Shown: in pieces, positions 8,522-47,870 of the stretch
How positions within the stretch are numbered: the first letter of the stretch is position 1
How the letters are laid out: the number at the start of each line of letters is the position of its first letter
NCBI RefSeq assembly: GCF_010994755.1
Contig: NZ_WHSB02000003.1
Location: 124,001 to 188,000, forward strand
DNA from: Shinella lacus
GTDB lineage: Bacteria; Pseudomonadota; Alphaproteobacteria; Rhizobiales; Rhizobiaceae
Direction of reading: 5' to 3'
DNA: 64,000 nt
The notes under the pieces: generated by a model
What the model was told of the DNA's origin: nothing
The model's input: the letters and a program-made list of their open reading frames with translations, nothing else
Database searches by the model: none
Translations under genes and position numbers: made by a program

Positions 8522-8550
8522 TTGACACCGGCAAAATTTCACAATTAATA
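8522..8550 (+). promoter_or_regulatory. Sigma-70 type promoter for the dioxygenase/importer operon
   Basis: TTGACA at 8522-8527, a 17-bp spacer and TTAATA at 8545-8550 form a near-consensus promoter pointing to the gene at 8678. The -10 box is covered by the degenerate operator at 8540-8555, which suggests repression by blocking RNA polymerase. Confidence 0.6.
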
Positions 8551-8555
8551 TTGCT
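8540..8555. promoter_or_regulatory. Degenerate copy of the TGCAA-N6-TTGCA operator
   Basis: CACAA-N6-TTGCT with spacer TTAATA matches 7 of 10 arm positions of the palindrome found perfect at 13928, 21533, 22817 and 47743. Taken alone it would be weak; its overlap with a good -10 box before a related importer supports it. Confidence 0.4.
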
Positions 8556-8677
8556 GATAGTTGATGGCCGCAATTTTTGATCTGCGCTTGCGGCTCGCGG
8601 TGCCCGAGGAGGGGTGCCGCGAGAAGGATGCATGCCGCCATCAAACCGGGTTTCACGCATCGGGTAGGAGGATTTCG

Positions 8678-9787
8678 ATGAACGATATTGCAACGGTGAT
8701 CGACCTTGCGCAATTCCGGCGTCAGGTGGAGACCGAGACCACCATGGCGATGTGCCCGACGGCGATCGCCATCGAGAAGAACATTCCGATCTATGACGGC
8801 GCCTCTGTCAATGACGAAATCGGCCCGGAATGGGCGTCGATCATCGGCGAGGGGCCGGGTGTGTTCGTGGTGAAGCGCGCCTTTACCGATCCGGGTGCCA
8901 TCGATGCGGCGAGCGAGGTGTTTCGCCAGATCATCGCCGACGAGCGCGCGGCCGGCACGGCAGCAGGCGACCATTTCGCCAAGGCCGGCGCCAATGACCG
9001 CATCTGGAACAGCCTGCAAAAGCTCTGCCTGCGCGATCCCGCCGTTTACGCCCGCTACATGGCCAACCCGGTGATCGATATCGCCTGCCGCGCTTGGCTC
9101 GGCCCGGGCTACCAGATCGCCACGCAGGTCAACCAGGTGCGCCCCGGCGGCAAGGCGCAGGCGCCGCACCGCGATTACCATCTCGGCTTCATGAAGCCGG
9201 AGCAGATGGCGGAATATCCGAGCCACATCCACGCCACCGGTCCGACCCTCATCCTGCAAGGCGGCGTCGCCCATTGCGACATGCCCGTCGAGAGCGGCAC
9301 GACGAAGCTGCTGCCGCATTCGCAGCGCTACCTGCCGGGCTATGTCGCCGCCACGCGGCCGGAATTCCGCGATTATTTCGAGGAGAACTATGTCCAGCTC
9401 GCCCTCGAAAAGGGCGACGCGATCTTCTTCAGCCCCGCGCTGTTCCACGCTGCCGGCGAGAACCGGACCGCGGATGTCGTGCGCATGGTCAACCTCATCC
9501 AGACGGCCTCGGCCTTCGCGCGCCACATGGAAAACCTCGACCGTACCGCCATGGCCCGCGCCGTCTACCCGCATCTGGCGGCACTCTCGCCGCAGGGTCG
9601 GCGCGCGGTGATCGCCGCGACGGCGGACGGCTACCCGTTCCCGACCAATCTCGACACCGATCCGCCGCTCGGCGGTCTTGCGCCGGAAAGCCAGCAGGAG
9701 CTGCTCGCCCGGGCCGTCGCGGAAGGCTGGGACCAGGCGAAACTGGACGCCGCTTTGTCTGCACAGGGCGCCAAGCGCGCGGCCTGA
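8678..9787 (+). CDS. PhyH-family Fe(II)/2-oxoglutarate dioxygenase
   Basis: Probable non-haem iron, 2-oxoglutarate-dependent dioxygenase of 369 residues. The double-stranded beta-helix metal triad can be read as H164-x-D166 (APHRDYH) and H257 (ALFHAAG), with R269 as the likely 2-oxoglutarate anchor, spaced as in phytanoyl-CoA dioxygenase relatives. Such enzymes hydroxylate or oxidatively demethylate small molecules. The start has GTAGGAGG 8 nt before it; an upstream in-frame extension has no ribosome site. The gene is followed after 63 bp by a sugar-type importer, so it probably acts on what that importer brings in, for example an O-methylated cyclitol. That substrate is inference only. Confidence 0.88.
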   Translation: MNDIATVIDLAQFRRQVETETTMAMCPTAIAIEKNIPIYDGASVNDEIGPEWASIIGEGPGVFVVKRAFTDPGAIDAASEVFRQIIADERAAGTAAGDHFAKAGANDRIWNSLQKLCLRDPAVYARYMANPVIDIACRAWLGPGYQIATQVNQVRPGGKAQAPHRDYHLGFMKPEQMAEYPSHIHATGPTLILQGGVAHCDMPVESGTTKLLPHSQRYLPGYVAATRPEFRDYFEENYVQLALEKGDAIFFSPALFHAAGENRTADVVRMVNLIQTASAFARHMENLDRTAMARAVYPHLAALSPQGRRAVIAATADGYPFPTNLDTDPPLGGLAPESQQELLARAVAEGWDQAKLDAALSAQGAKRAA

Positions 9788-9850
9788 CAGTTACCCGCAA
9801 CGGCTTCGGGCGGGGAGGAACAGGAAGCCAATTTCGGGAGGAAATCGTTC

Positions 9851-10795
9851 ATGAAGAAAATTCTGCAATCGCTCGCCCTCGGCGCGCTGCTCGCCACGAC
9901 GGCCTTTGCCGGTGTGGCCAATGCGGATGGCGAAAAGTTTGTCTGGATCAGCCATGGCCCGGATAGCGACAGCTGGTTCAACGTCATCAAGAACGCCATC
10001 AAGGTCACGAACGAGCAGATGGGCGTCGAGACCGAATATCGCAATCCGCCGACGGGCGACCTCGCCGACATGGCGCGCCTCGTGCAGCAGAGTTCGGCTG
10101 CCGGCGTCGACGGCATCATCGTCACGATCGCCGACTTCAACGTGCTCGAAGGGCCGATCAAGGACGCCATCGCCAAGGGCATTCCGGTTGTGACCGTCAA
10201 TTCGGGCACGGTCGAGGAAAGCCAGAAGCTCGGCGCGCTGATGCATGTCGGCCAGCCGGAATTTGAAGCGGGCCTCGGCGCCGGCAAGCGCGCCAAGGAA
10301 GCGGGCATCAAGAGCTTCCTCTGCGTCAACCACTACATCACCAACCCGGCCTCCGTGGAGCGGTGCCGCGGTTTTGCCGAGGGCATCGGCGTGGAACTCG
10401 GCAACCAGATGGTCGATTCCGGCATCGACCCGTCGGAAGTACAGAACAAGGTGAAGGCCTACCTCACCGCCAATCCCGATACCGGCGCGATCCTGACGCT
10501 CGGCCCCAACTCGGCCGAACCGTCGATCCGGGCGGTCAAGGAAATGGGCCTCGACGGCGATCTCTATTTCGGCACGTTCGACCTCTCGGCCGAGATTTCC
10601 GCCGCCATCAAGGACGGCACGATCAACTTTGCGATCGACCAGCAGCCGTTCCTGCAGGGCTCGATCCCGATCCAGGTGCTGACGAGCTATGTGCGCTACG
10701 GCGTGGCGCCGGCCAACTCCATCTTCACTGGCCCCGGCTTCGTTACGAAGGACAATATCGCGCTCGTCGAGTCGCTGGCGGGCCAGTACCGTTGA
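9851..10795 (+). CDS. Sugar/cyclitol ABC importer, periplasmic binding protein
   Basis: Ribose-type (Peripla_BP_4) binding protein of 314 residues. Residues 1-25 are a signal peptide ([20 protein letters not shown], cleavage near VANADG). The mature part has [28 protein letters not shown] and the second-domain motif [19 protein letters not shown]. The class includes binding proteins for ribose, fructose, myo-inositol and rhizopine (MocB). It precedes permease and single-domain ATPase genes, with a strong hairpin in between, so it is likely made in excess over the membrane parts. The surrounding IolE/G/D-like genes favour a cyclitol ligand. Confidence 0.92.
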
Positions 10796-10806
10796 TCTGA
10801 CGGGTT

Positions 10807-10844
10807 TTTTGGCGCGCCGGGCGACCTGCCCGTGCGCGCCAAAA
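10807..10844 (+). terminator. Intra-operon hairpin after the binding-protein gene
   Basis: TTTTGGCGCGC (10807-10817) pairs with GCGCGCCAAAA (10834-10844); inside it CGGGC (10818-10822) pairs with GCCCG (10828-10832). A short T run follows. Placed 11 bp after the stop and 28 bp before the permease start, it may stop part of the transcripts or protect the 3' end of the binding-protein message. Confidence 0.65.
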
Positions 10845-10872
10845 GTCTTTTTCGAGGGAGGAGAATGCATTC

Positions 10873-11994
10873 ATGACGGACGTCATTCCAGACGCGCTGA
10901 AGGACGAGCGCATCAAACCCGTCTCGCCGCTTCGGCGCGCGCTGATCCGGCCCGAGCTCGGCGGCATCTGCGGCACCATCCTGGTCTTCCTGCTGTTTGC
11001 CGTCATTGCCGGCGACAGCGGCATGTTCGCCGCGGAAGGCGTGATGAACTGGACGGTGGTCTCGGCCCAGTTCATGGTGATCGCGGTCGGCGCCTGTCTC
11101 CTGATGATCGCCGGCGAGTTCGATCTTTCGACCGGCTCGATGATCGGCTTTTCCGGGGTGATGATCGCCATTCTCTCGGTCCATATCGGCGTGCCGCTGT
11201 GGCTCGCCATCATCGCGACCTTCGTCTTCTGCATCCTGCTCGGCGGCGTGAACGGCTGGCTGGTCATCCGCACCGGCCTGCCGTCCTTCATCGTGACGCT
11301 CGCCTTCCTCTATATCCTGCGCGGGCTGACCATCTGGGGCTCGATCTACTTCACCCGGCAGACCATCATCGGCGGCGTCGCGGAGAAGGCGGCGACCGAT
11401 TGGCTAGCGCCGATCTTCGGCGGCAAGGTTCTGGGCTGGCTCTTCACCTGGATGGGGGAGGCGGGCTGGATCGCCACCTTCACCCGCGGCAACCGCGCCG
11501 GCCAGCCGGTCATCGACGGCATCCCGATGCTCGTCGTCTGGGCGATCGTGCTGGTGATCTTCGGCCATTGGCTGCTGACGCGCACCAAGTTCGGCAACTG
11601 GATCTTTGCGGCCGGGGGCGATGCGCTCGCCGCGCGCTACGTCGGCGTGCCGGTGAATCGCGTCAAAATCCTCATGTTCATGTTTTCCGCCTTCTGCGCC
11701 TGCGTCTTTGCGACCTGCCAGGTGATGGAATTCGGCTCGGCGGCGGCCGACCGCGGTCTCCTGAAGGAGTTCGAGGCGATCATCTGCGTGGTCATCGGCG
11801 GCGCCTTGCTGACCGGCGGTTACGGCTCGGTCATCGGGGCCGCACTTGGCGCCATCATCTTCGGCGTGGTGCAGCAGGGCCTGTTCTTCGCCAATGCGGA
11901 AAGCTCGCTCTTCCGGGTGTTCCTCGGCCTTATCCTGCTGACGGCCGTGATCATGAACACCTATATCCGCCGCATCATCACGGGAGAACGCTGA
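10873..11994 (+). CDS. Sugar/cyclitol ABC importer, permease
   Basis: Inner-membrane permease of 373 residues, BPD_transp_2 (RbsC/FrcC) family, with about ten hydrophobic segments after a 35-residue cytoplasmic start. Family motifs are [17 protein letters not shown], the [17 protein letters not shown] segment, and [21 protein letters not shown], the latter being the ATPase contact. It is longer than RbsC (about 320) because of an extended loop around residues 155-215 ([13 protein letters not shown] ... [11 protein letters not shown]). The stop overlaps the ATPase start by one base. The single permease with a single-domain ATPase recalls the FrcBCA arrangement of rhizobia. Confidence 0.92.
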
Positions 11995-12770
11995 TGGCCG
12001 CCATCGTGGAGATGAAAGACATCACCAAGCATTTTGGCCATGTCATCGCGCTGGCCGGCGTCTCCTTCGATATCCGCGCAGGCGAATGCCATTGCCTGCT
12101 CGGCGACAACGGTGCCGGCAAATCGACCTTCATCAAGATCATGTCCGGCGTCTACAAGCCGAGCGGCGGCGAGGTGCTGGTGGAAGGCACGCCGACGCTG
12201 TTCCAGAGCCCGCGCGATGCCATGACGGCGGGCATCGCGACGGTCTACCAGGACCTCGCCATGATCCCGCTGATGAGCGTCAGCCGCAATTTCTGGATGG
12301 GACGTGAGCCGGAGCGCGGCGTCTGGCCCTTCCGGACCTTCGACACGGCCAAGGCCGACGACATTACCGTCAAGGAAATGCGCAAGATGGGCATCAGCCT
12401 GCGCGGCCCCGACCAGGCGGTGGGCACGCTTTCCGGCGGTGAACGCCAGACGGTCGCCATCGCCCGCGCCGTCTATTTCGGCGCCAAGGTGCTGATCCTC
12501 GACGAACCGACCTCGGCACTCGGCGTGCGCCAGACGGCGAATGTGCTGAGCACCATCGACCGGGTGCGCAAGCAGGGCATCGGCGTCGTCTTCATCACCC
12601 ACAATGTCCGCCACGCGCTCGCCGTCGGCGACCGCTTCACGGTGCTGAACCGCGGCCAGACGCTGGGCACCGCCGAACGCGGCACGGTGGATGCAGCGGC
12701 GCTGCAGGACATGATGGCCGGCGGGCAGGAGCTGGCGCTGCTGGAATCCTCGCTCGGCGGGACGATCTGA
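11994..12770 (+). CDS. Sugar/cyclitol ABC importer, single-domain ATPase
   Basis: ATPase of 258 residues with one nucleotide-binding domain, unlike two-domain RbsA. Seen: Walker A GDNGAGKS near residue 37, signature [15 protein letters not shown], Walker [16 protein letters not shown] and H-loop FITHNVRHA. The [10 protein letters not shown] form is shared with FrcA-like ATPases. It is the last gene of the unit that begins with the dioxygenase. The 195-bp region after it carries a palindromic repeat rather than a T-tailed terminator. Confidence 0.93.
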
Positions 12771-12857
12771 GAAGCGCACGCCGGACAGACAATCCGGCGT
12801 GCATCGCATTGCATGCGGGGTCTGGTTTGCGGGGTTGCGAGCCTTCCTACCCTCCAA

Positions 12858-12965: not shown

Positions 12966-13865
12966 TCAGCAGACAACCTCGTAACCGGCGGCAGCCATCA
13001 CGCGGAGGAGTTCCTTATGGCCGATCTTTGCCATGTCGAGCGGCGGATTGTGGGTGGGGTCCTGCTCCGCCTCGACGACGAACCAGCCCTCGTAGCCGTA
13101 GGAGGCGAGGCGCTTGACGATGGCCTCGAAATCGAGGCTGCCATCGCCGGGAACCGTGAAGGCGCCCTTGATCACGGCGTCGAGGAAACTTTCCCGCGTG
13201 CGGTCGAGCGCGTCGATCACCGGCAGGCGCACGTCCTTGGTGTGCACGTGGGTGATGCGCGTGTGGTGCTTGTCGATGACCCGCAGCACGTCGCCGCCGG
13301 CGAAGGCCATGTGGCCGGCGTCGAAGAGCAGGGGGAGGCCCTCGCCGGAATGTTTCATCAGGAGGTCGAGTTCTTGCTCGGTCTCGATCGGGGCGGCCAT
13401 ATGGTGGTGGTAGGAAATCGGCATGCCCTGGTCGGCGCACCATTCGCCAAAGGCCGTCATCTTGCGGCCATAGGTCTTGATCTCGTCCTCGGAGAGCTTG
13501 CGCTTCGTCGCAAGCGGCGCCGTACGGTCGCCCTGGATCGTGCCCGCCGTCTCGCCATAGACGATGCAGGGCGCGCCGACGGCCTTGAACAGGGCCATCT
13601 GCGCTGCGATCCGGTCCTTTTCTGCCGCGATGTCACCGTCGAGCAGCAGGCCCGAGAACCAGCCGCCGCACACGCTCATGCCGTGCTGGTCGAGGATCGG
13701 GCGCAGCGTCGCCGCATCCATCGGGAAACGGCGGCCGGTCTCCATGCCGGTGAAACCCGCTTCGCGCGCTTCGGCAAGGCATCCTTCCAGCGAGATATCG
13801 CTGCTGATTTCCGGCAGGTCGTCGTTCCACCAGGCGATGGGCGCAATGCCGAGTTTGGCTTTCAT
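12966..13865 (-). CDS. iolE: myo-Inosose-2 dehydratase-like protein (IolE family)
   Basis: TIM-barrel protein of 299 residues of the AP-endonuclease-2/xylose-isomerase-like superfamily. The start KAKLGIAPIAWWNDDLPEI is the IolE-type NPIAW.NDD signature. Metal or substrate residues sit at the strand ends: YHHHMAAP, LLFDAGHMAFAG, ITHVHTKDVR and VVEAEQDPTHNP. IolE dehydrates scyllo-inosose to the trihydroxycyclohexanedione that IolD cleaves. GGAG stands 8 nt before the ATG; longer upstream frames have no ribosome site. It is divergent from a Gfo/Idh gene, and the gap between them carries a perfect TGCAA-N6-TTGCA palindrome. Assignment to IolE is good; the real substrate may be a derivative, since IolB and IolC are missing here. 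Confidence 0.85.
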   Translation of the reverse strand: MKAKLGIAPIAWWNDDLPEISSDISLEGCLAEAREAGFTGMETGRRFPMDAATLRPILDQHGMSVCGGWFSGLLLDGDIAAEKDRIAAQMALFKAVGAPCIVYGETAGTIQGDRTAPLATKRKLSEDEIKTYGRKMTAFGEWCADQGMPISYHHHMAAPIETEQELDLLMKHSGEGLPLLFDAGHMAFAGGDVLRVIDKHHTRITHVHTKDVRLPVIDALDRTRESFLDAVIKGAFTVPGDGSLDFEAIVKRLASYGYEGWFVVEAEQDPTHNPPLDMAKIGHKELLRVMAAAGYEVVC

Positions 13866-13909
13866 GGTCGGGCTCCAGGTTCGAGGGAAGGCGTCTTGCA
13901 AAACAAATA

Positions 13910-13943
13910 TTGACACTTTCATATTTTTGCAACGATAATTGCA
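13910..13943 (+). promoter_or_regulatory. Promoter with overlapping TGCAA-N6-TTGCA operator
   Basis: TTGACA (13910-13915), an 18-bp spacer and GATAAT (13934-13939) face the gene at 13981. The palindrome TGCAA (13928-13932), CGATAA, TTGCA (13939-13943) is perfect and covers the -10 box. It lies between divergent starts at 13865 and 13981 and could control both. Confidence 0.75.
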
Positions 13944-13980: not shown

Positions 13981-15093
13981 ATGAAAAAGAAGCTCCGTCT
14001 TGGCCTTATCGGCTCGGGTTTCATGGGCAAGACGCACGTCTTCGGCTTTGCCGCCGCCGAGCGGGTCTTCGATCTGCCCTGTGACGTGGAGCTGGCGACG
14101 ATTGCCGACGTGACCCTGGCGCAGGCGGAAGCCGCACGCGCCGCCTTCGGTTTCGCACGGGCCACGGATGACTGGCGGAGCCTGGTGGCGGACCCGGACA
14201 TCGACGTGATCGACATCACCGCCCCCAACGCCCTGCACAAGGAGATGGCGCTCGCGGCAATCGCCGCCGGCAAACACGTCTATTGCGAAAAGCCGCTCGC
14301 CCCGCTTGCGAGCGACGCGCGCGAAATGGCGGACGCCGCGGAAAAGGCCGGCGTCAGGACGCAGGTCGGCTTCAACTATCTCTGCAACCCGATGCTCGGC
14401 CTCGCGAGGGAGATGATCGCCGGCGGGGAACTGGGGGACATCCGCGGCTATCGCGGCCTCCATGCGGAGGACTATATGGCCGATCCGGCCGCACCCTTCA
14501 CCTTCCGGCACGATCCGGCGGGCGGCGGGGTGCTGGCGGATCTGGGCAGCCATGCGCTGGCGACGGCCGAGTTCCTCGTCGGCCCGATCACCAGGGTCAT
14601 GGGCGATTGCGTGACGGTGATCGCCAGCCGCCCCGACGGCAAGGGCGGCGTGCGGACCGTCGAGACGGACGATATCGGCCGCGCCTTCCTGCGCTTCGAA
14701 AACGGCGCGACGGGCTCGATCGAGGGCAACTGGGTCGCCACCGGCCGCAAGATGCAGCACGATTTCGAGGTCTACGGCACCAAAGGCGCGCTCGCCTTCT
14801 CGCAGGAGCGCTTCAACGAACTTCATTTCTATTCGACGGGCGATGCCAAGGGCCGCCAGGGTTTCCGCCGCATCGAGGCCGGTCCAGACCATGTGCCCTA
14901 TGGTCGCTTCTGCGTCGCACCCGGCCACCAGCTCGGCTTCAATGACCTGAAGGCGATCGAAGTCGCCGGTTATCTCGACGCGATCGCCGGCCTCAGGCCA
15001 GAACCGTTCAATTTCCGCGCCGGCCTGCGCATTCAGACGCTGGTGGAGACGATCCAGACATCGTCGCGCAACGGCGCCTGGCTTGCGGTTTGA
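13981..15093 (+). CDS. Gfo/Idh/MocA-family oxidoreductase
   Basis: NAD(P)-dependent dehydrogenase of 370 residues. A Rossmann fold starts at LRLGLIGSGFMGKTHVFGF, and the family lysine is in YCEKPLAP near residue 100. The C-terminal alpha/beta domain carries GGGVLADLGSHALATAEFLVG, whose histidine is usual in the active site. The family oxidises ring hydroxyls of inositols, sugars and rhizopine. The start ATG follows GAGGAAACACAGAGA; an upstream in-frame ATG crosses the operator and is rejected. It is the first gene after the 13928 operator and is followed after 20 bp by a second Gfo/Idh gene, with which it shares little beyond the family motifs. Confidence 0.9.
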   Translation: MKKKLRLGLIGSGFMGKTHVFGFAAAERVFDLPCDVELATIADVTLAQAEAARAAFGFARATDDWRSLVADPDIDVIDITAPNALHKEMALAAIAAGKHVYCEKPLAPLASDAREMADAAEKAGVRTQVGFNYLCNPMLGLAREMIAGGELGDIRGYRGLHAEDYMADPAAPFTFRHDPAGGGVLADLGSHALATAEFLVGPITRVMGDCVTVIASRPDGKGGVRTVETDDIGRAFLRFENGATGSIEGNWVATGRKMQHDFEVYGTKGALAFSQERFNELHFYSTGDAKGRQGFRRIEAGPDHVPYGRFCVAPGHQLGFNDLKAIEVAGYLDAIAGLRPEPFNFRAGLRIQTLVETIQTSSRNGAWLAV

Positions 15094-15113: not shown

Positions 15114-16097
15114 GTGAAAAGCATCGGAATTGGCGTCATCGGCGCGGGCGTGATGGGGGCGGAGCATGCGCGCATCCTTGCCAGCGATGTTTCGGGCGCG
15201 CACCTCGTTGCCGTGGCCGATGCCGACCCTGCCCGTGCCGAGGCGGCCGCGCGCGGGGCGAGGGCGACGACGGACGCCGAGGCGCTGATCGCCGATCCCG
15301 CCGTCGAAGCAGTGCTCATCGCCTCGCCGGATGCGACGCATCACCGGCTCGTGCTGGCGGCGATCGCGGCGGGCAAGCCGGTCCTCTGCGAAAAGCCGCT
15401 CGCGACAAGCACCGCCGAATGCCTGGAGATCGTCACGGCCGAGGCGCGATCCGGCCGGCGGCTGGTCCAGACCGGCTTCATGCGCCGCTTCGATCCCGCC
15501 TATCGCGAAATGAAGGCAGCGATCGACGACAACACGCTCGGTGCCGTGCGCATCCTGCATTGCCAGCATCGCAATGCGGCAGCGCCATCGTGGTTCACCG
15601 GCGCGATGGCCGTCACCAATTCGCTGGTGCACGAGATCGACGTCTGCCGCTGGCTGCTCTCGACGGAATACACCGCCGTCACCGTCATTCCCTGCCCGTC
15701 TGAGGCGAGCAACGACCCCGCCATGTTCATCTTCGAAACGGCGGCGGGCAGCCTCGTTTCCGTGGAACTCTTCATGAATGCCGACTACGGCTACCACGTC
15801 CACGCCGAAGCGGTCTGCGCGGGCGGCACGATCGGCATGGCGCATCCGGCCGTCACCCGCACACGGCGCAACGGCGCGGAGGAGGGGTCTTTCCCGGCAA
15901 ACTGGGTGCCCCGCTTCCGCGATGCCTATCGCCTCCAGAATCAGGCCTGGATCGACGGTATCCGCGGCGGCACGCCGGCGGCGGATGGCTCGACGGCCTG
16001 GGACGGGCTCGTCGCCACCTGCCTCGCGGACCAGATTGTCGTCGCAATGACGACACGCGAGCGCACGCGGCTGACGCTGCCCGAAAGTCCAAGCTGA
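15114..16097 (+). CDS. Gfo/Idh/MocA-family oxidoreductase (inositol 2-dehydrogenase-like)
   Basis: NAD(P)-dependent dehydrogenase of 327 residues. Rossmann motif IGVIGAGVMGAEHARIL, EKP motif VLCEKPLAT, and the segment GFMRRFDPAYREMKAA with HRNAAAPSWFTGAMAVTNSLVHEIDVCR in the substrate domain, a pattern of inositol 2-dehydrogenase relatives. I use a GTG start because GGGAGGAAGAACC precedes it with good spacing; an ATG at 15099 would place the ribosome site inside the gene. It is strikingly close to the protein at 44969-45982 over this whole segment, so the two clusters share a duplicated gene. It lies in the unit that starts at 13981. Confidence 0.9.
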   Translation: MKSIGIGVIGAGVMGAEHARILASDVSGAHLVAVADADPARAEAAARGARATTDAEALIADPAVEAVLIASPDATHHRLVLAAIAAGKPVLCEKPLATSTAECLEIVTAEARSGRRLVQTGFMRRFDPAYREMKAAIDDNTLGAVRILHCQHRNAAAPSWFTGAMAVTNSLVHEIDVCRWLLSTEYTAVTVIPCPSEASNDPAMFIFETAAGSLVSVELFMNADYGYHVHAEAVCAGGTIGMAHPAVTRTRRNGAEEGSFPANWVPRFRDAYRLQNQAWIDGIRGGTPAADGSTAWDGLVATCLADQIVVAMTTRERTRLTLPESPS

Positions 16098-16149: not shown

Positions 16150-16165
16150 TGCAATAAAGATTGCT
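16150..16165. promoter_or_regulatory. TGCAA-N6-TTGCT operator before the aldehyde dehydrogenase unit
   Basis: TGCAA, TAAAGA, TTGCT; nine of ten arm bases fit the palindrome consensus. It lies 68 bp before the ATG at 16233 within an AT-rich stretch. A plausible -35 is TTGCGG at 16131-16136 with the operator spacer acting as -10, or TTGACT at 16144-16149 with a later -10. Confidence 0.65.
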
Positions 16166-16232: not shown

Positions 16233-17669
16233 ATGTACGGTTCCTACGGTTTGTTCATTGACGGCGCCTGGTCGGGGCCGGCGCGCGGGGCCTCCACCGA
16301 GATCACCGATCCCGGCAATGGCGAGGTTCTCGGCGTGGTGCCCGCCGCCGCCGTGGAGGATACGGAAAGGGCGATCGCCGTTGCCGAACGCGCCTTCCGC
16401 AGCTGGAAGGCGACGCCCGCCTGGGCGCGCGCGGATGCACTGCACAAGGTCGCCGATGTCATGGCTGCGCGCGCTGCGGAAGCGGCCCGCCAGATCACGC
16501 TCGAAACCGGCAAGCCGCTGGCGCAGGCCGGTCGTGAATGGGGCCTCGCCGTCGACCAGTTCCGCTGGTACGCGGAAGAGGCCCGTCGCATCTACGGCCG
16601 CATCGTCGAAAGCCGCGCGCCGGGCGGCCGGCTGGAAGTGTCACATGAGCCCGTCGGTGTCGTCGCGGCCTTCACGGCGTGGAATTTCCCGGCGGCGCTG
16701 ATCGCCCGCAAGGTCGCGCCCGCACTTGCGGCCGGCTGTGCCGTCATCGTCCGGCCTTCGGTCGAGGTGCCGGGTGTGGCGATGATCCTGTTCGATTGCC
16801 TGCGCGAGGCCGGCCTTCCCGCAGGCGTCGCCAATCTTCTGATCGGCCCGACCGGCAATACCTACAAGCCCATTATGGCCTCGGCCCTCGTGCGCAAGGT
16901 TTCGCTGACGGGCTCGACCCGCGTCGGCCAGCAGATGATCCGCGACAGCGCCGAGACGGTGAAGCGCGTCAGCATGGAACTCGGCGGCAATGCGCCGATG
17001 ATCGTCTTCGACGATGCCGATCTCGACCGGGCGCTCGACCTCGCCGTGCCGACGAAATACGCCAATGCCGGCCAGGTCTGCGTCACGCCGGACCGCTTCT
17101 ACGTGCACGAGTCGCTGCACGATCGCTTTGCCGATGGTTTCGCGGCGCGGGCAAAAGCGCTGAAGCTCGGCCATGGCCTCGACGAGGCGACGCAGATGGG
17201 GTCGCTGATCAACGAGCGCCGCAGGCTGGCGATCGAGGAGATCATCGCCGACGCCAGCGACCGCGGCGGCAAGATCCTTGCCGGCGGCCGCCGCCCGGCC
17301 GGCATGAATGCCGGCTTCTTCTTTGAGCCGACCGTCGTCACCGGCCTGCCGGACGATGCCAAGGCGATCGCCGAGGAGAATTTCGGCCCGATCGCCGCCA
17401 TCACGCCTTTCTCCTCGGCGGACGAGGTCTTCGAGCGGGCGAACGCCTCCGAGATGGGCCTCTCCGCCTATGTCTTCACGCGCGATGCCGGGCGCGCCCG
17501 AGAGGCGGCGGCGCGGCTGGAGGCGGGCATGGTCGGCGTCAACAGCTTTGCGCTCGCGGCGGCCGAGGCGCCCTTTGGCGGCATCAAGGCAAGCGGCATG
17601 GGCCGCGAGGGTGGCACCGAGGGCATTCTGGATTATTCCAATGTCAAACTCGCGCAGATGACGGTTTGA
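16233..17669 (+). CDS. NAD(P)-dependent aldehyde dehydrogenase
   Basis: Cytosolic aldehyde dehydrogenase of 478 residues. Coenzyme-binding motif FTAWNFPAALIARK, glycine loop SLTGSTRVGQQM, general-base glutamate in SMELGGNAPMIVF and catalytic cysteine in NAGQVCVTPDRF are all in place. The strong GGAGGAGGTGAC before the ATG fixes the start. It opens a three-gene unit (dehydrogenase, aldolase, hydroxyacid dehydrogenase) preceded by the 16150 operator. It is not the CoA-acylating IolA type by these motifs and looks closer to succinate- or 2-oxoglutarate-semialdehyde dehydrogenases. Likely job: oxidising an aldehyde released further down the cyclitol route. Confidence 0.92.
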   Translation: MYGSYGLFIDGAWSGPARGASTEITDPGNGEVLGVVPAAAVEDTERAIAVAERAFRSWKATPAWARADALHKVADVMAARAAEAARQITLETGKPLAQAGREWGLAVDQFRWYAEEARRIYGRIVESRAPGGRLEVSHEPVGVVAAFTAWNFPAALIARKVAPALAAGCAVIVRPSVEVPGVAMILFDCLREAGLPAGVANLLIGPTGNTYKPIMASALVRKVSLTGSTRVGQQMIRDSAETVKRVSMELGGNAPMIVFDDADLDRALDLAVPTKYANAGQVCVTPDRFYVHESLHDRFADGFAARAKALKLGHGLDEATQMGSLINERRRLAIEEIIADASDRGGKILAGGRRPAGMNAGFFFEPTVVTGLPDDAKAIAEENFGPIAAITPFSSADEVFERANASEMGLSAYVFTRDAGRAREAAARLEAGMVGVNSFALAAAEAPFGGIKASGMGREGGTEGILDYSNVKLAQMTV

Positions 17670-17679
17670 GGAGAGAGCC

Positions 17680-18495
17680 ATGATCAAGAACGGTGTCAAG
17701 CAGCGCTGGGCGGAGGGCAAGCCCGTCATCAACGGCTGGCTTTCGATCGGCAATTCCTTCAGCGCCGAAATCATGGCCGGTCAGGGCTACGATTCGCTCA
17801 CCATCGACATGCAGCACGGCATCGTCGGTTATGACGGCACGGTGCCGATGTTGCAGGCGATGCGGGCAAGCGGCGTGACGCCGCTGGTGCGTGTGCCCTG
17901 GCTTGACCCCGCCGATATCATGAAGGCGCTGGACGCCGGCGCCTACGGCGTCATCTGCCCGATGATCAACACGCGCGCCGAGGCCGAACGGCTGGTCTCC
18001 TACGTGCGCTATCCGCCCGCAGGCGTGCGCAGTTTCGGGCCGAGCCGGGCACTCTTCTCCGCCGGCCCCGGTTATGCCGCGGAAGCCGATGACGAGATCA
18101 TCTGCCTCGCCATGATCGAGACCGCGCAGGCCTATGAGAACCTCGAAGACATTCTCGCCACCCCCGGCCTCGACGGCGTCTATATCGGCCCGGCGGACCT
18201 GACGCTCGGGCTTCAGGGCAAGCGCTATGCGCCCGGCTTCGACCGCCGCGAGCCGGAGATGATCGAGGCGATCAAGCGGATTCTCCATGCGGCGCACAAG
18301 GCCGGCAAGCGTGCGGCCCTCCACAACGGCACCCCCGAATATGCGGCCGAGGCCGTCGGCTGGGGCTTCGATTTCATCACCGTCTCCAACGACGTCCGCC
18401 TGCTTGCCGCCGCCGCCGATGCGAGCGTGCGAAAATTCCGCGAGCTCGTGCAGGAGGTCGCTCCCGAAAACAAGATCGATACGGGAGGCTATTGA
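17680..18495 (+). CDS. HpcH/HpaI-family aldolase
   Basis: Class II metal-dependent aldolase of 271 residues. It shows the family signatures GYDSLTIDMQHGIVGYD near residue 40 (base/metal region), GAYGVICPMINT, GVRSFGPSRA, MIETAQAYEN (metal glutamate) and GVYIGPADLTLGL. HpcH, GarL and related enzymes cleave 4-hydroxy-2-oxo acids into pyruvate and an aldehyde. It starts 10 bp after the aldehyde dehydrogenase gene and its stop abuts the next ATG, so all three genes are coupled. The aldehyde product could feed the preceding dehydrogenase. This would be an alternative end route to the IolJ aldolase, which is absent here. Confidence 0.9.
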   Translation: MIKNGVKQRWAEGKPVINGWLSIGNSFSAEIMAGQGYDSLTIDMQHGIVGYDGTVPMLQAMRASGVTPLVRVPWLDPADIMKALDAGAYGVICPMINTRAEAERLVSYVRYPPAGVRSFGPSRALFSAGPGYAAEADDEIICLAMIETAQAYENLEDILATPGLDGVYIGPADLTLGLQGKRYAPGFDRREPEMIEAIKRILHAAHKAGKRAALHNGTPEYAAEAVGWGFDFITVSNDVRLLAAAADASVRKFRELVQEVAPENKIDTGGY

Positions 18496-19485
18496 ATGCC
18501 GAGGATCCTGGTGGCCGGCAAGATCCATGCGGATGGACTTGCGGTCCTGCACTCCGCGCCGGGCGTGACGGTCGATTATGTCGAGGAGGTTTCCGCGGCG
18601 AGCTACCGGCCGTTCCTCGCCGCCGCCGATGCGCTGCTCATCCGCACCCAGCCGCTGCCGGCGGAGTTCATCGCCGGCGCGCCGCAGCTCAAGATCGTCT
18701 CGCGCCACGGCGTGGGGTATGATTCCGTCGATGTTGAAGCGCTGAACGGCCGCGGTATACCGCTTGCCGTCGTGGGTGACGTGAATTCGCGAGCCGTGGC
18801 CGAACATGCCGCGATGCTGATGCTGTCGGCCGCACGCCGCACCGTGCTTTTTGACCAAAAAATGCGGGCCGGCGACTGGAACTACCGCAACACCCTCGAT
18901 GCTGACGAACTCGACGGGCGGACCCTGCTTGTCGTGGGTTTCGGGCGCATTGGCCGGAGACTGGCGCAGATCGCGATGGTGCTCGGCATGGCGGTGCTGG
19001 CCTATGACAAGTTCCAAGACGCCGCCGAGATCGCGGCGGCCGGCGTGACCCCGGTCGCAGACCTGCGCGATGGCCTCCGGCAGGCCGACGTGGTGTCGCT
19101 GCATGTGCCGAAATCCGGCGCGGAACCGCTCATCGGGGCGGCGGAACTGGCGGTGATGAAGCGCTCCGCCATCCTCGTCAACACGGCGCGCGGCGGGCTG
19201 ATCGACGAGGCGGCGTTGCTCGCCGCGCTCAACGAGGGGCGCCTGTCCGCGGCCGGCCTCGACGTGCTCGATTCCGAACCGCCGGCGCGCGACGACCCGA
19301 TGCTCGCCTGCGAGCGCGTCGTGCTCTCGCCGCACAATGCCGGGCTGACCGAAGCCTGTGGGCGGCGCATGGCGATCTCGGCGGCGACCAACATCCTCGA
19401 TTTCTTCAAGGGCACGCTCGATCCGGCGCTCGTCGTCAACCGCGACGAGATCGCGGCGCATGCCCGTTCGAGTGTCGGCGCCTGA
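18496..19485 (+). CDS. D-isomer-specific 2-hydroxyacid dehydrogenase
   Basis: NAD-dependent dehydrogenase of 329 residues of the D-3-phosphoglycerate dehydrogenase/glyoxylate reductase family. The nucleotide fold is at LLVVGFGRIGRRLAQIA, the catalytic arginine in LVNTARGGLIDEAAL, the glutamate in DVLDSEPPARDDPML and the histidine in VVLSPHNAGLTE. The substrate-binding part shows RHGVGYDSVDVEALNGRGI. The ATG follows the aldolase stop without any gap. It lacks the ACT domain of SerA, so a catabolic 2-hydroxy or 2-oxo acid is more likely than serine synthesis. Confidence 0.9.
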   Translation: MPRILVAGKIHADGLAVLHSAPGVTVDYVEEVSAASYRPFLAAADALLIRTQPLPAEFIAGAPQLKIVSRHGVGYDSVDVEALNGRGIPLAVVGDVNSRAVAEHAAMLMLSAARRTVLFDQKMRAGDWNYRNTLDADELDGRTLLVVGFGRIGRRLAQIAMVLGMAVLAYDKFQDAAEIAAAGVTPVADLRDGLRQADVVSLHVPKSGAEPLIGAAELAVMKRSAILVNTARGGLIDEAALLAALNEGRLSAAGLDVLDSEPPARDDPMLACERVVLSPHNAGLTEACGRRMAISAATNILDFFKGTLDPALVVNRDEIAAHARSSVGA

Positions 19486-19593: not shown

Positions 19594-20505
19594 ATGCCGC
19601 GGGTAAAACAGTCCGACCAGCCGCCACCGAAAACGGCGAACTACGAGACCTTCTTCAACATCGTCACGGAAGCCTATCCCAACCTCAGCGACCGGTTCCA
19701 GCAGGTCGCGCGGTTCATCACGCAGAACCCCAACGTCGTGGCCATGCAGTCGATCAATGCGATTGCCGAACAGTGCGGCGCGCATCCGTCCATCCTCGTG
19801 CGTTTCGCGCAGAATTTCGGCTTTTCCGGCTTCAAGCAGCTCCAGTCGGTGTTCCAGAGCCGGCTGTCGACCGCCGCACCCGGTTATCGCGAACGCATCA
19901 GCGCGCTCGACGTCGATCTGGAAAAGACCAAGCGCAAGGGCAATCTCGGTTTCCTGCACGATCTAGTCGTGCGCGACATCGCGACCTTGCAGGAGCTTTT
20001 GAACACGACGACGGAGGAGAGCCTTTCGCAGGCCGCCCGCGCGCTGAAGAACGCCAACACGATCTTCATCGCCGGCCAGCTGCGGTCGGAGCCGATTGCG
20101 AAATTCCTGCGCTACGTGCTCTCCATGCTGCAATGCCGCGTCATTCTTCTCGATCCGGCTGGCGGGCTTGCGCCGGAAATGGCGAAGGTGATGGGCAAGA
20201 AGGACGTGCTGGTCGCCATCGCCTTCCGGCACTATGCCAAGGAAGTGGTGACGATCGCCGATGTCGCGGCGGAAAACGGCACGCCGATCGTGGCGATCAC
20301 CGACAGCCAGCTCTCGCCGCTCGCCAAGAATGCGACGGTGCTCTTCACGATTCCGGAAGACGAATATTCGTTCTCGCGCTCGCTCGCCGCACCCATGTGC
20401 CTGACGCAGACGATTGCGGTGGCGCTCGCCGCGCTGCTTCAGGAAGACAAGAAGGGCTCGCCCGAGATCCCGACAGTCACGGGCAAGCAGCGGCGCAAGC
20501 ATTGA
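19594..20505 (+). CDS. RpiR-family transcriptional regulator (probable IolR-type repressor)
   Basis: Regulator of 303 residues: an N-terminal RpiR helix-turn-helix (FQQVARFITQNPNVVAMQSI, then CGAHPSILVRFAQNFGFSGF) at about residues 25-85 and a C-terminal SIS sugar-isomerase domain (NANTIFIAGQLRSEPIAKFL ... VTIADVAAENGTPIVAITDS). SIS domains bind phosphosugars or inosose-like ligands; RpiR-type IolR represses inositol genes in rhizobia. The start follows GGAGTGGAGG; an ATG at 19564 is less well placed. It lies amid the iol-like genes and is the best candidate to bind the TGCAA-N6-TTGCA palindromes. Its own promoter region has half-sites (TTGCA at 19523, TGCAA at 19541) but no full copy. Confidence 0.9.
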   Translation: MPRVKQSDQPPPKTANYETFFNIVTEAYPNLSDRFQQVARFITQNPNVVAMQSINAIAEQCGAHPSILVRFAQNFGFSGFKQLQSVFQSRLSTAAPGYRERISALDVDLEKTKRKGNLGFLHDLVVRDIATLQELLNTTTEESLSQAARALKNANTIFIAGQLRSEPIAKFLRYVLSMLQCRVILLDPAGGLAPEMAKVMGKKDVLVAIAFRHYAKEVVTIADVAAENGTPIVAITDSQLSPLAKNATVLFTIPEDEYSFSRSLAAPMCLTQTIAVALAALLQEDKKGSPEIPTVTGKQRRKH

Positions 20506-20507: not shown

Positions 20508-21509
20508 TCAGCCGGTAATCTCGCCGACCTTCACGAAGCGGCCTTCCGCCTTGGAGCGAATGGCCGCCTCGGCCAGCACCAGTGCCTTCTCGCCATCCTC
20601 GAAGGTGGCGTCCGGCCTGGTGTTTGAGGCGACGCAGGCGAGGAACGACTGGAGGCCGAGTTCGAAGGCTTCGACGTAGCGTTCGATGAAGAAGTCGAGA
20701 TAGGGCTCGCCCGCACCCGTCGTCGTGGCATTGAAGCGCTCGACATGGTGGGCGCGGCGGTTGCCGGAGATCAGCATGCCCTTCGAGCCGAAAAGCTCGA
20801 CGCGCTGGTCGTAGCCATAGGCCGCGGCGCGGGAATTGTTGATGTGGCAGAGCTTGCCGCTTGCGGTGCGCATGACGATCATCGTGGAATCGACGTCGCC
20901 GAATTCCGCGAGCGTCGGATCGACGAGCGTGCTGCCGGTGGCGAAAACCTCGACGGGCTCTTCGCCCAGCATGAAGCGGGCGAGGTCGAAGTCGTGGATG
21001 GTCATGTCGCGAAAGATGCCGCCGGAGACCCTGAGATAGTCGCGTGAGGCGAGGCCCGGATCGCGCGAGGTGATGATGACCTGCTGGAGATCGCCGATCT
21101 CGCCGGCGCGCGTCGCATCGTGGGCGGCGCGGTGGCCGGGGTCGAAGCGGCGGTTGAAGCCGATCTGCACGGGCCGTTCGAAGCCCGCGATGGCCTGGCG
21201 GCAGGCGATGACGCGGTCGAGCGACAGGTCGATCGGCTTCTCGCAGAAGATCGCCTTGCCGGCCTTGGCGGAAGCTTCGATGAGGTCCGCATGGGTCGCC
21301 GTCGAGGTCGCGATCAGCACGGCGTCGGCGAGCGCGATCGCCTCCTCAGCGCTGGCGGCGACGGTGCAGCCGTAGCGCCGGCCGATCTCTTCGGCGGCGG
21401 CTGCGACCGGGTCGTAGACGGCGGTGAGTTCGGCGCCTTCGGCGCGCACGATGGTGGCCGCGTGCATTTTGCCAATGCGGCCGCAGCCGAGCAGGGCTAT
21501 TCTCGTCAT
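20508..21509 (-). CDS. iolG: myo-Inositol 2-dehydrogenase-like protein (Gfo/Idh/MocA family)
   Basis: NAD-dependent dehydrogenase of 333 residues. Rossmann start RIALLGCGRIGKMHAATIV, AIFCEKPIDLSLDRV with the catalytic lysine, GFNRRFDPGHRAAHDA, and the active-site stretch GGIFRDMTIHDFDLARFML with the D-x3-H type pair of inositol dehydrogenases. IolG oxidises myo-inositol to scyllo-inosose with NAD. GGGAGG precedes the ATG. It converges on the RpiR gene with only 2 bp between stops and is divergent from the gene at 21621, with the perfect 21533 palindrome in between. The name rests on family motifs; scyllo- or chiro-inositol are also possible substrates. Confidence 0.85.
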   Translation of the reverse strand: MTRIALLGCGRIGKMHAATIVRAEGAELTAVYDPVAAAAEEIGRRYGCTVAASAEEAIALADAVLIATSTATHADLIEASAKAGKAIFCEKPIDLSLDRVIACRQAIAGFERPVQIGFNRRFDPGHRAAHDATRAGEIGDLQQVIITSRDPGLASRDYLRVSGGIFRDMTIHDFDLARFMLGEEPVEVFATGSTLVDPTLAEFGDVDSTMIVMRTASGKLCHINNSRAAAYGYDQRVELFGSKGMLISGNRRAHHVERFNATTTGAGEPYLDFFIERYVEAFELGLQSFLACVASNTRPDATFEDGEKALVLAEAAIRSKAEGRFVKVGEITG

Positions 21510-21532: not shown

Positions 21533-21548
21533 TGCAAAATTCGTTGCA
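21533..21548. promoter_or_regulatory. Perfect TGCAA-N6-TTGCA operator between divergent iolG-like and Gfo/Idh genes
   Basis: TGCAA (21533-21537), AATTCG, TTGCA (21544-21548). It lies 24 bp upstream of the iolG start and 73 bp upstream of the ATG at 21621, so one site may control both directions. Confidence 0.75.
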
Positions 21549-22816: not shown

Positions 22817-22832
22817 TGCAATAAGTATTGCA
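22817..22832. promoter_or_regulatory. Perfect TGCAA-N6-TTGCA operator before the iolD-like gene
   Basis: TGCAA (22817-22821), TAAGTA, TTGCA (22828-22832), starting 2 bp after the stop of the preceding gene and followed by a very AT-rich stretch to about 22865. It gives the downstream unit (22904-27896) its own likely control point. Confidence 0.75.
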
Positions 22833-24745: not shown

Positions 24746-24789
24746 TCGCGGCACTGCCTCGACACCATTTTGATCTGAGGACGACAAGC

Positions 24790-25842: not shown

Positions 25843-25853
25843 GGGCCTTGTCC

Positions 25854-27029: not shown

Positions 27030-27089
27030 AGCGCGCACCGGACAAGCCGAACCGCAAGACAACGCGTAAGCGCAGGAGAGGAAATCCGA

Positions 27090-43532: not shown

Positions 43533-43911
43533 GGCACTGGTCCTGGATGCGAGACGTCGTCGTTCCAGCGCCGCGATGCCTCTGCGACGCCTCTACGCCG
43601 ACGATTACATCCAGCACAATCCGAACATTCCTCAGGGCAGGGACGTGTTGCGGCGCCTCGTCGAGATCCTGTCACCTTCCGTCCACTACGAACCGGGATT
43701 GATCATCGCCGAAGGCGACTTGGTCGCTATCCACGGCCGTATCTGGAGCTGGGCGGACGAGCCCCAGATTGTGGTTGATATCTTCCGGGTCGAGGGTAGC
43801 AAGCTCGTCGAACACTGGGACGTGTTGCAGAACGAAGTGCCGGTAACCGCTGGCGTTGCCGGCCTTGCGATGTTCGATCCCGAAGAAAGTGCCAGCCGCG
43901 CTGGACAATAA
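43531..43911 (+). pseudogene. SnoaL/NTF2-like protein, N-terminally frameshifted remnant
   Basis: From about 43594 the frame reads LYADDYIQHNPNIPQGRDVLRRL and on to VVDIFRVEGSKLVEHWDVLQNEV, a clear SnoaL-like domain. The expected N-terminal helix is split over three frames: KALVLDA in the main frame (from 43531), RDVVV in the next (43549-43563), FQRRDASAT in the third (43563-43589), then back to the main frame. That fits compensating small indels in a once intact gene. No start codon with a ribosome site precedes the domain. A shortened protein could still be made from an internal ATG at 43576, but most likely it is a decaying gene. Confidence 0.6.
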
Positions 43912-43997
43912 CCTGTTGCGTTTTTCCACGCCTCCTACATCCGCGGCGACGCTCTAATTTCGTCGTCCGCGGAACTTCGCTTTCGATGGCATGGCCG

Positions 43998-44957: not shown

Positions 44958-44968
44958 TATCGAATTCC

Positions 44969-45982: not shown

Positions 45983-46333
45983 TCCATGTTCCTTGTTTTC
46001 GAAGCGCGATGGGCACAACGACGGGTCGCTATGAGCGAGTTCCTATTGCGACAATTCAAGTTTGAAGCCTCGCGGCGGGCCCTGAGCTGGAGCAAGGCAC
46101 TCGTCGATGAGAAGCAATGCCAGCTTCGAGGGTGAGGATTTTCTTCAATTGATTGGTTGGATTATCTGGATTGAAATGCCATCATTCAACGAAAGCGAAG
46201 GACGAATTTCGATGTCTTTCACATCAAATATATCGCACCGCACAAATCCAGACCGACGTCGTCGTCTTCTTGGTAACACGCGGTCACTCAGTCGATTCCA
46301 TGATTTAAATCGCATCAGACTGTGAGAGGAAAA
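45983..46333. other. Divergent promoter region between MocA-like and LacI-type genes (351 bp)
   Basis: AT-richer than the genes on either side. I see GATGT-N5-ACATC (46212-46226) and the palindrome GATTTAAATC near 46303-46312, either of which might bind the LacI-type protein. A 72-codon frame at 46107-46325 has no ribosome site or domain character and is not called. Confidence 0.4.
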
Positions 46334-47359
46334 ATGCCAAAACCGGCAAAGCCTGGAACATGGAAAGGGCCATCGGTCCAAGCGATCGCGAAGATTGCGG
46401 CTGTGGGCTCCGCGACGGTCGACCGAGTGCTCAACAACCGTAGCGGTGTGCGGGAGAAGACCCGTGCACGGGTTCTCGCGGCGCTTGAAAAACTCCGCCA
46501 TGAGAGCGCCGACAGCGACGTTCCCGTCCTCATTCGCCTGTTCTGTGAATCGGGTGAAACATTCAATGCGGCCATGGCGGCGGCGGTGTCAGAGGTGAAC
46601 CGCACGCAGGCCGGCATCGACATACAAGGCGTTTACGTAACAACAAGCGACGCCGAACCGCTCGCCTTCGCGCGGCGGATCGAGCAGGAAGGCGGAGAGG
46701 GAGACGGCGTCGTCGTCATTGGCCGGGAGCATCCGGCAACGAACCGGGCCATTCGAAAGCTCCGGACGATCGGCCGGCCGGTGGTCTGCCTTACAACCGA
46801 TCTGCCGAGTTCACGACGAAGCACTTATGTCGGGAACGATCAGTATGCCGCCGGCAGTGTTGCGGCACTCTTGATCGGCAATGCGCTGCCGAAGGAAAAC
46901 AGCAGCATTCTGGTTGTCATGAGCGTGCCGTTTCGCTGTCAGCAGGAGCGGGAGATGGGCTTTCGGCGAGTTCTGCGGTCCGATTTTCCGTACCTGAAGA
47001 TCGAGGAACGCATGATCTCGGACGAAAGGCCCGAGAGCACATGCGAACAGCTAACGCGATACTTCGAGACGAATGGGCATCCCGCGGCAATTTACAACGT
47101 CGCTGGCGCCAATCGCGGCATTGCCAAGGCGCTGGAAAATGCGGGCAAGGCGAATGAGACAGTGTTCGTCGGTCATGAATTGTCCATCCATTCCCGCGCG
47201 CTTCTGGAGTCCGGAGTGATGGATTATGTCATTTCGCATGATTTCGCGGCCGAACTCGCCTCGGCAGCAAGATGGATAAAAAGCAATTTGAATGGCGTGA
47301 CCAGCGAGCCAAGCTATTCGCAGGTTCTCGTCCACACGCGATACAATTGCGGCCCTTAG
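46334..47359 (+). CDS. LacI-type regulator with periplasmic-binding sensor domain
   Basis: Regulator of 341 residues. The N-terminal helix-turn-helix is SVQAIAKIAAVGSATVDRVL with the hinge helix VREKTRARVLAALEKL; the sensor starts DVPVLIRLFCESGETFNAAM and resembles sugar-binding proteins (NVAGANRGIAKALENAGKANETVFVGHEL). The TVDRVLN recognition helix differs from the classical TVSRVLN, as in the subgroup that regulates inositol or xylitol use. GAGAGGA precedes the ATG. It sits between the MocA/epimerase pair and the third importer, so either or both may be its targets. Confidence 0.88.
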   Translation: MPKPAKPGTWKGPSVQAIAKIAAVGSATVDRVLNNRSGVREKTRARVLAALEKLRHESADSDVPVLIRLFCESGETFNAAMAAAVSEVNRTQAGIDIQGVYVTTSDAEPLAFARRIEQEGGEGDGVVVIGREHPATNRAIRKLRTIGRPVVCLTTDLPSSRRSTYVGNDQYAAGSVAALLIGNALPKENSSILVVMSVPFRCQQEREMGFRRVLRSDFPYLKIEERMISDERPESTCEQLTRYFETNGHPAAIYNVAGANRGIAKALENAGKANETVFVGHELSIHSRALLESGVMDYVISHDFAAELASAARWIKSNLNGVTSEPSYSQVLVHTRYNCGP

Positions 47360-47870
47360 CGCCTTCTGTGGGCATCTAAGTGGTGCCGGCCCGGGTGGCC
47401 TTGCTGCCCATCGGCGACGGGGGAATATCCGTTCGTTTCGTCGATGATGCTCTATTTGAAGCTTAAAAGCTGCAAACGTACGATGTAGTTTACATCATTC
47501 TCATTTCTCCTTTCAGAATAAATGAAATATTTTCAATATGTTATGTGAAGTATGCTCTCCACGCCAATTTGATGAAGAGAAAATCAGAATTCATCCCATG
47601 AAAACCTTGCGATCCTTCATCTTCATCAATGAAAATACGTCCAAGCGATCTGGTTGCCAGGTCGCCCCAGATAGTCACGAACGCCCACCGCAACGCCGAC
47701 TTCGGTCCGAATCTGGAATAAATATTGACTATCTGAATCTTGTGCAATAAATGTTGCATCGAGGAGTTCAGCAGGCAGCGTGGAGGTTGCCTGTGATGCC
47801 GTCTGAAAACGACTGAGCCAGGCGCTCGCATCGAAGACTCCGTTGCTTCAAATCAAGGAGGAGGAACCTT
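47360..47870. other. Intergenic region before the second cyclitol-type importer (511 bp)
   Basis: Markedly AT-rich from about 47480. It contains the promoter/operator at 47725-47758. A 70-codon frame at 47538-47750 ends inside the operator, lacks a ribosome site and is not called. Nothing else was identified. Confidence 0.5.
47725..47758 (+). promoter_or_regulatory. Promoter with overlapping perfect TGCAA-N6-TTGCA operator
   Basis: TTGACT (47725-47730), a 17-bp spacer and TAAATG (47748-47753) as -10. The palindrome TGCAA (47743-47747), TAAATG, TTGCA (47754-47758) covers the -10 box exactly as at 13928. It is 112 bp before the importer's first gene and 27 kb from the RpiR gene. Confidence 0.75.

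Follow-up and report, generated by a model that had tools for sequence, protein, structure and literature searches.

In Caulobacter, the genes regulated by IolR share the motif GGAA-N6-TTCC, and mutation of one copy, TGGACCATATGTTCCA, raised the activity of the iolC promoter (PMC2597717). IolR has been described as a repressor, with 2-deoxy-5-keto-gluconic acid 6-phosphate as its effector (PMC8877191). We analyzed a 64,000-nucleotide stretch of the Shinella lacus genome (contig NZ_WHSB02000003.1, positions 124,001 to 188,000), hereafter the window, in which copies of the palindrome TGCAA-N6-TTGCA were located around the gene of an RpiR-family protein (19594..20505, + strand; hereafter RpiR 19594). 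Comparison of sequences suggested that RpiR 19594 very probably regulates a cyclitol-degradation regulon, most likely as a repressor, through a predicted 16-base-pair (bp) operator, TGCAAY-N4-RTTGCA, and that it is kin of IolR with an altered half-site base.

The locus was similar to those of Caulobacter and rhizobial IolR (PMC2597717) in three respects: an RpiR protein with an SIS domain next to inositol genes, a 16-bp dyad with an N6 spacer, and motif copies before catabolic and importer operons. The first-pass annotation of the window had given GGAA-N6-TTCC as the rhizobial motif, which the same paper confirmed. However, base 3 of the half-site was G for IolR and C in the window, and residue 64 of the regulator was Gln (or Pro) in IolR and His in RpiR 19594. 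The regulon also differed from that of IolR. IolD, IolE and IolG were combined with an aldehyde dehydrogenase (ALDH), a HpaI-type aldolase, a 2-hydroxyacid dehydrogenase (2HADH) and a PhyH protein. Unlike in a canonical myo-inositol cluster, neither IolB nor IolC was among the matches listed for the 20 window proteins scanned; the copies of IolB and IolC over cut-off were on contigs C11 and C48 of the genome, away from the cluster. The LacI-family IolR groups (PMC4052901) share inositol genes and even palindromes with the window, whereas the protein family differs and their motif is mostly CG-centred. A central CG, the mark of LacI operators in that source, was absent from all four perfect copies in the window.

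Predicted operator copies and their conservation at RpiR loci

Six copies of the palindrome had been placed just before transcription units in the first-pass annotation, and all six were present. The perfect copies were located at 13928..13943 (TGCAACGATAATTGCA), between divergent genes for IolE and GfoA, a Gfo/Idh/MocA dehydrogenase; at 21533..21548 (TGCAAAATTCGTTGCA), between divergent IolG and GfoB; at 22817..22832 (TGCAATAAGTATTGCA), before the IolD operon; and at 47743..47758 (TGCAATAAATGTTGCA), before importer 2, whose start codon was 127 bp away. A 9/10 copy (TGCAATAAAGATTGCT, 16150..16165) stood immediately 3' of a -35-like TTGACT before the ALDH gene, and a weak 7/10 copy (CACAATTAATATTGCT, 8540..8555) covered the -10 before the operon of PhyH and importer 1. 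Five of the six were classified as gene-upstream sites. The remaining copy, 8540, was outside the called genes about 130 bp upstream of the PhyH gene. The overlap with -10 boxes claimed for three copies was observed at two of them. At 13928, the operator spacer overlapped the -10 GATAAT of a TTGACA-18-GATAAT promoter (13910-13939), and at 8540 the operator overlapped a TTGACA-18-TAATAT promoter (8522-8551). At 47743, however, no promoter was called by the consensus scan, although a TTGAC 5' of the site was conserved in all six aligned sequences having the site.

Upstream regions from 12 regions of the genus were aligned, and the operators were conserved while the surrounding sequence changed. 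GCAA-N6-TTGC was retained at the GfoA site in 11 of 11 regions (L140-L150) and at the IolG site in 9 of 9 aligned loci. The operator match upstream of ALDH was found in all 12 regions (L140-L151), and the IolD site was present in 8 of 10 aligned loci. In five relatives, the position aligned with 8540 held TGCAATTAATGTTGCT or TGCAATTATTTTTGCT; another five had CACAATTAATATTGC there. Because the aligned position in relatives held operator sequences, 8540 was regarded as an aligned operator and not as a random 7/10 match.

The comparison was extended with an orthologue search seeded with an alignment of eight regulators, and the best 80 of 253 relatives were used with at most 10 kb on each side. 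Every dyad W-Nx-rc(W), a tetramer followed by its reverse complement, was counted for 256 tetramers and the 15 spacers from 0 to 14. GCAA-N6-TTGC was the top-ranked dyad, with 234 copies in 76 of the 80 loci, whereas the other spacers gave 50.07 on average. When the Shinella-like loci were removed, 187 copies remained against 44.0, in 65 of 69 loci. With genes called by homology among the loci, 175 of the 234 copies lay no more than 400 bp upstream of a gene, although such sequence made up 8.9% of the loci, and 5 lay neither there nor in genes. Upstream copies at spacers N3, N4, N5, N7, N8, N9 and N10 numbered 1-11 each. Bases that were not used in the site search also showed a signal, namely a pyrimidine at the first spacer base, an A/T centre and T-rich and A-rich flanks. 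GGAA-N6-TTCC, in contrast, gave 27 copies in the 80 loci, 5 of them upstream, so that the rhizobial IolR operator was not the motif of these loci. At least one upstream site was found in 25 of 26 genera outside Shinella (genus names assigned by hand), and the signal reached Caballeronia, Halomonas, Marinobacterium, Pantoea, Raoultella, Massilia, Bradyrhizobium, Rhizobium and Paracoccus. Since the relatives are not independent, the locus counts were not read as probabilities.

The targets were tallied as sites within 450 bp upstream, with families assigned by best match to window genes. A site preceded IolD in 50 of 69 loci with the gene, ALDH in 38 of 52, the RpiR gene itself in 37 of 79 and IolG in 25 of 52. 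It preceded GfoA in 13 of 57, GfoB in 10 of 15 and IolE in 8 of 58, and the count was 0 before several families located inside operons of the 80 loci. The footprints over the 80 loci and the 12 genus regions supported the earlier proposal of an RpiR regulon centred on 19594.

Kinship with IolR and residue 64 of the recognition helix

RpiR 19594 scored 44.3 bits with PF01418 and 69.8 bits with PF01380, both over cut-off, as expected of the RpiR/MurR family. Its eight top-ranked named orthologues were all from Shinella, with 91-98% identity. In the tree, window-type and IolR-like proteins formed separate clades (100/98, 100/100), so that the window regulator fell outside the IolR clade, and the two clades grouped together against other RpiR proteins (100/100). 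The genome also encodes its own Gln-type IolR paralogue, 31% identical to RpiR 19594; this gene adjoined IolC and IolD, with CGGAATATTCATTCCG between iolR and iolC. TGGAA-N6-TTCCA and TGCAA-N6-TTGCA differed at base 3 of each half. The divergent specificity proposed in the first-pass annotation was thus supported by a shifted motif, but the "other bases" came down to one base per half-site. The 21 IolR-like loci, taken with 1.5-kb flanks, held GGAA-N6-TTCC 8 times, GAAT-N4-ATTC 16 times and GCAA-N6-TTGC twice.

This base change was accompanied by a difference at residue 64, which opens the recognition helix. It was His in 89 of 89 window-type proteins, a set that includes near-copies and one or more pairs of identical proteins (L013 and L100), and Gln in 20 and Pro in 1 of the 21 IolR-like proteins. 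Many further residues also differed between the two clades. The IolR-like protein with Pro64, L032, had no site found at its locus. Pro64 was also present in three Bradyrhizobium IolR-like proteins (L190, L193 and L194), with TAGAATATTCATTCCA near the L193 and L194 genes. Both observations counted against the rule that Gln reads G. Because of these Pro-type proteins, the rule was restated so that G goes with either Gln or Pro, and it was held less probable.

A possible structural basis was provided by NanR of Streptococcus pneumoniae (PMC12713135, a preprint). In the NanR-DNA structure, the helix begins with Ser50, which contacts the operator phosphate at position 4; base 4 is contacted by Arg56. 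The layout of the recognition helix is the same, Ser50 and Arg56 correspond to window residues 64 and 70 by S-x5-R spacing, and operator position 4 and base 3 of TGCAA are equally far from the dyad. NanR differs in that it is an activator of sialic-acid genes with an 18-bp TCTGAAA-type operator. The residue mapping was based on the S-x5-R spacing, an alignment with 4ivn that placed H64 on the matching Ser, and the NanR preprint. By this alignment, rather than by a structure of the window protein, residue 64 would lie near half-site base 3.

The second importer and rival explanations

The first-pass annotation had tied a second importer into the regulon through the 47743 copy, and the genus gave evidence for this link. 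Of 21 genomes of the genus, counting the window's own, 13 had the RpiR orthologue. Importer 2 was found in 7 of these 13 and in 0 of the 8 without RpiR (Fisher P 0.018). TGCAA-N6-TTGCA stood 126-128 bp before importer 2 in 6 of the 7 genomes having it, again counting the window's. In five relatives, importer 2 adjoined importer 1 and belonged to the same cluster, with the order LacI, site, importer 2, site, PhyH and importer 1, IolE, site, GfoA, then sites, ALDH, HpaI, 2HADH, a third ATP-binding cassette (ABC) transporter and RpiR. The separate arrangement in the window was probably the displaced one. The third ABC transporter, between 2HADH and RpiR, was present in L140-L150 and missing from the window.

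Several results weighed against the proposed regulon. With two mismatches allowed, the window held 24 matches against 21.6 in shuffles, and the whole genome (7.04 Mb) held 10 perfect copies against 8 for a reversed-pattern control; neither was an enrichment. The genome-wide scan and the comparison with and without the orthologue, proposed as a test in the first-pass annotation, were run and were uninformative alone, since perfect-copy counts in the 21 genus genomes separated neither genomes with RpiR from those without nor either group from the reversed control. Motif frequency alone was therefore weak evidence, and the comparative analysis had to decide. In the 80 loci, 54 of the 234 matches lay in genes, close to the level of most other spacers, and 11 loci had no upstream site, all of them records of metagenome-assembled genomes and 8 of them shorter than 14 kb. 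Sites preceded only 6 of 36 ATP1-like and 4 of 16 ATP2-like ATPase genes and none of the 4 SBP1-like or 8 SBP2-like genes (substrate-binding proteins, SBP) in these loci. For this reason, the importer link was drawn from the genus. Within the genus, L138 carried LacI and importer 2 without a site, about 670 kb from RpiR on the same contig. Nor is the motif private to RpiR 19594, which shares it with a distant His-type RpiR of the genome. The perfect copy at C24:421631 lay in the first codons of a Ser-type RpiR (L174, C24:421432-421650), which misfits the His rule.

The missing excess over control and in the two-mismatch count would fit chance palindromes in A/T-rich promoter DNA. This explanation was in practice refuted by the exact dependence on spacing, the first rank among all dyads, the upstream placement and the conservation across classes. 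The clustering of copies was unusual: 4 of the 10 in the genome lay in the window, 0.9% of the genome length (binomial P 1.4e-6, for a window that had been picked because of the copies). An iterated weight matrix, which had the six named sites among its eight best window matches, drifted to A/T-rich sequence and was not used as support.

The gene of the distant His-type regulator (G000:C6:88999-89853, L158) was separated from an importer gene by the perfect copy G000:C6:89860, and the protein also had His at the helix start (VHEAT). In the window's genome this RpiR adjoined an ABC binding protein, of iron type by eye. Among the 12 RpiR proteins of the genome, the residue 64 position was His in 2, Gln in 1 and Ser in 9. 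The C6 type, found at 15 loci (L158-L172) in 14 of 297 family genomes, formed a clade separate from the window type (nine of the 15 were in the tree). GCAA-N6-TTGC was the top dyad at these loci (28 copies against 2.07) and occurred in all 15, with His read in each. In 13 loci the site stood no more than 400 bp upstream of the regulator gene, and in the other two it came just after the gene; L171, with His, had two sites, located some 55 and 85 bp upstream. Because this type uses the same motif, motif scans alone cannot assign sites. Thus the claim that the palindrome defines an RpiR regulon stood as to the regulon but not as to the palindrome, which alone is insufficient. Control of the window sites by the C6 regulator, alone or jointly with RpiR 19594, would fit the shared TGCAA-N6-TTGCA core, but it appeared very unlikely. 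The first spacer base was a purine in 37 of 44 half-sites of distinct C6-type sites, giving TGCAAR-N4-YTTGCA, whereas it was a pyrimidine in 234 of 264 half-sites in the window clade and in 11 of 12 in the six window sites (hand count). Moreover, the C6 type was rare in the family, and the window-type footprints were located around window-type RpiR genes.

A rival assignment, in which the LacI-family protein encoded next to importer 2 uses the 47743 copy as its operator and importer 2 stands outside the RpiR regulon, was also improbable. The LacI gene (46322..47359, +; PF00356, PF13407) adjoined importer 2 in the window and in all six relatives examined (L140-L144, L138), and most motifs of the LacI family are even palindromes 16-22 bp in length (PMC4052901). 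However, these motifs are mostly CG-centred (1173 of 1303 transcription factors in that source), and the 47743 site has no central CG. A site of this type precedes six places in the window and also IolD, ALDH and RpiR in distant genera. In L138, where LacI and importer 2 are far from RpiR, the site was missing, although this is one case. Beside the LacI gene, a TIM-barrel and Gfo/Idh pair (43998-45982) had no true operator. A 15/16 match to the 13928 site at 45953, not in the first-pass list, was rejected; it overlapped the coding start of a Gfo/Idh gene and looked like chance.

The six perfect copies outside the window were judged by mechanically called open reading frames and by eye, and none of the six could be linked to the window regulon. 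Besides the C6 copy, C1:272296, with a CG centre, was near the start of a sugar-type binding protein; C50:41116 (L010) was a CG-centred TGCAAAACGATTTGCA before a permease, nucleobase-type by eye; C24:421631 and C33:167524 lay within open reading frames; and C1:867278 stood before a GntR-like frame. Perfect pairs of the TGCAAAACGATTTGCA type, 47 bp apart, were observed in G200, G202 and G206, with at least one copy in G208. As G200 and G208 have no window-type RpiR, these sites probably belong to another regulator.

Cyclitol genes and a possible kinase-free branch

The transcription units had been called cyclitol-type, and this was borne out because IolD, IolE and IolG scored over their NCBIfam cut-offs. 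The first operon consisted of the PhyH gene (phytanoyl-CoA dioxygenase-like, 8678..9787, +; PF05721) and importer 1 of ribose/rhizopine type (9851..12770, +), with SBP (9851-10795), permease (10873-11994) and ATPase (11991-12770). The SBP reached 263 bits with the NCBIfam rhizopine model, under the cut-off of 420. It was followed by IolE, inosose dehydratase (12966..13868, -; TIGR04379, 389 bits, cut-off 290), and by the levoglucosan-dehydrogenase-like GfoA (13981..15093, +), which gave 292 bits and did not reach the model cut-off of 650. A second inositol-dehydrogenase-like protein (15162..16097, +) also scored under its profile cut-off. The next operon (16233..19485, +) encoded ALDH (16233-17669), the HpaI-type aldolase (17680-18495) and 2HADH (18496-19485), with RpiR 19594 (HTH_6 and SIS domains) as its last gene. 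IolG, inositol 2-dehydrogenase (20508..21509, -; TIGR04380, 393 bits, cut-off 355), and GfoB, another Gfo/Idh/MocA dehydrogenase (21621..22814, +), were divergent. The operon at 22904..27896 (+) held IolD (22904-24745; TIGR04377, 838 bits, cut-off 715), an IolE-like TIM barrel (24790-25842), GfoC (25854-27029) and a short-chain dehydrogenase/reductase (27090-27896). Importer 2 (47871..51718, +) consisted of an SBP (47871-48899) and then permease, ATPase and permease.

In the proposed mechanism, RpiR 19594 would act as the local regulator and bind TGCAAY-N4-RTTGCA overlapping or abutting the promoters of importer 1, IolE/GfoA, ALDH-HpaI-2HADH-RpiR, IolG/GfoB, IolD and importer 2. Binding of a pathway intermediate to the SIS domain would then release it from the DNA. 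Repression was considered most likely because the operators lie on promoters, the regulator gene ends an operator-bearing operon, and IolR is described as a repressor. The regulator would be close kin of rhizobial IolR in which TGGAA changed to TGCAA, paired with His as the opening residue of the recognition helix; this residue may contribute to the change. The effector of IolR, 2-deoxy-5-keto-gluconic acid 6-phosphate, is made by the IolC kinase. Since 6 of 22 genomes with the regulator, of completeness not told, had no IolB and no IolC over cut-off, window-type RpiR likely uses a different effector.

A wider joint reading was held tentatively, at somewhat less than even confidence. It would combine a residue-to-base code for RpiR proteins, three RpiR circuits that share a 16-bp frame within one genome yet are insulated from each other, and a kinase-free cyclitol route. 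In this code, half-site base 3 would be selected with help from the residue that opens the recognition helix, C going with His and G with Gln or Pro. Paralogous His-type regulators would be kept apart by the first spacer base, which is either a pyrimidine or a purine. The ring would be opened by IolE and IolD, and IolB-IolC-IolJ would be replaced by an unphosphorylated branch of ALDH, HpaI-type aldolase and hydroxyacid dehydrogenase. The genes at 16233-19485 together with 22904-24745 possibly form such a branch. As a guess at its chemistry, 5-deoxyglucuronate might be oxidised and then cleaved by a retro-aldol step to hydroxypyruvate and malonate semialdehyde. Loci L055, L059, L069 and L083 carried IolD/IolE with ALDH, HpaI-type aldolase and 2HADH in genomes that had no IolB and no IolC over cut-off (completeness not told).

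The TGCAA-N6-TTGCA motif of RpiR was not found in the literature searched, a search that RegPrecise itself lay outside. These results pointed to a well-supported, predicted RpiR regulon with a new variant of RpiR/IolR-type specificity, and the first-pass annotation was correct in its main lines. It offers a specific and cheap test of how RpiR proteins read DNA, in which one residue is set against one base. In 2008, neither the GGAA-N6-TTCC motif nor an IolR homologue was found in Bradyrhizobium japonicum, according to PMC2597717. Window-type RpiR was found in 5 of 60 searched genomes of the Bradyrhizobium genus group, with His in all five (L187 included) and B. japonicum not identified among them, and it may bear on this gap. 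A survey of inositol genes requires three of iolB, iolC, iolD and iolE (PMC9430895), a criterion that would miss a module where IolB and IolC are absent. The predicted operators would give names to the control sites of a catabolic module that is spread over three classes of Proteobacteria.

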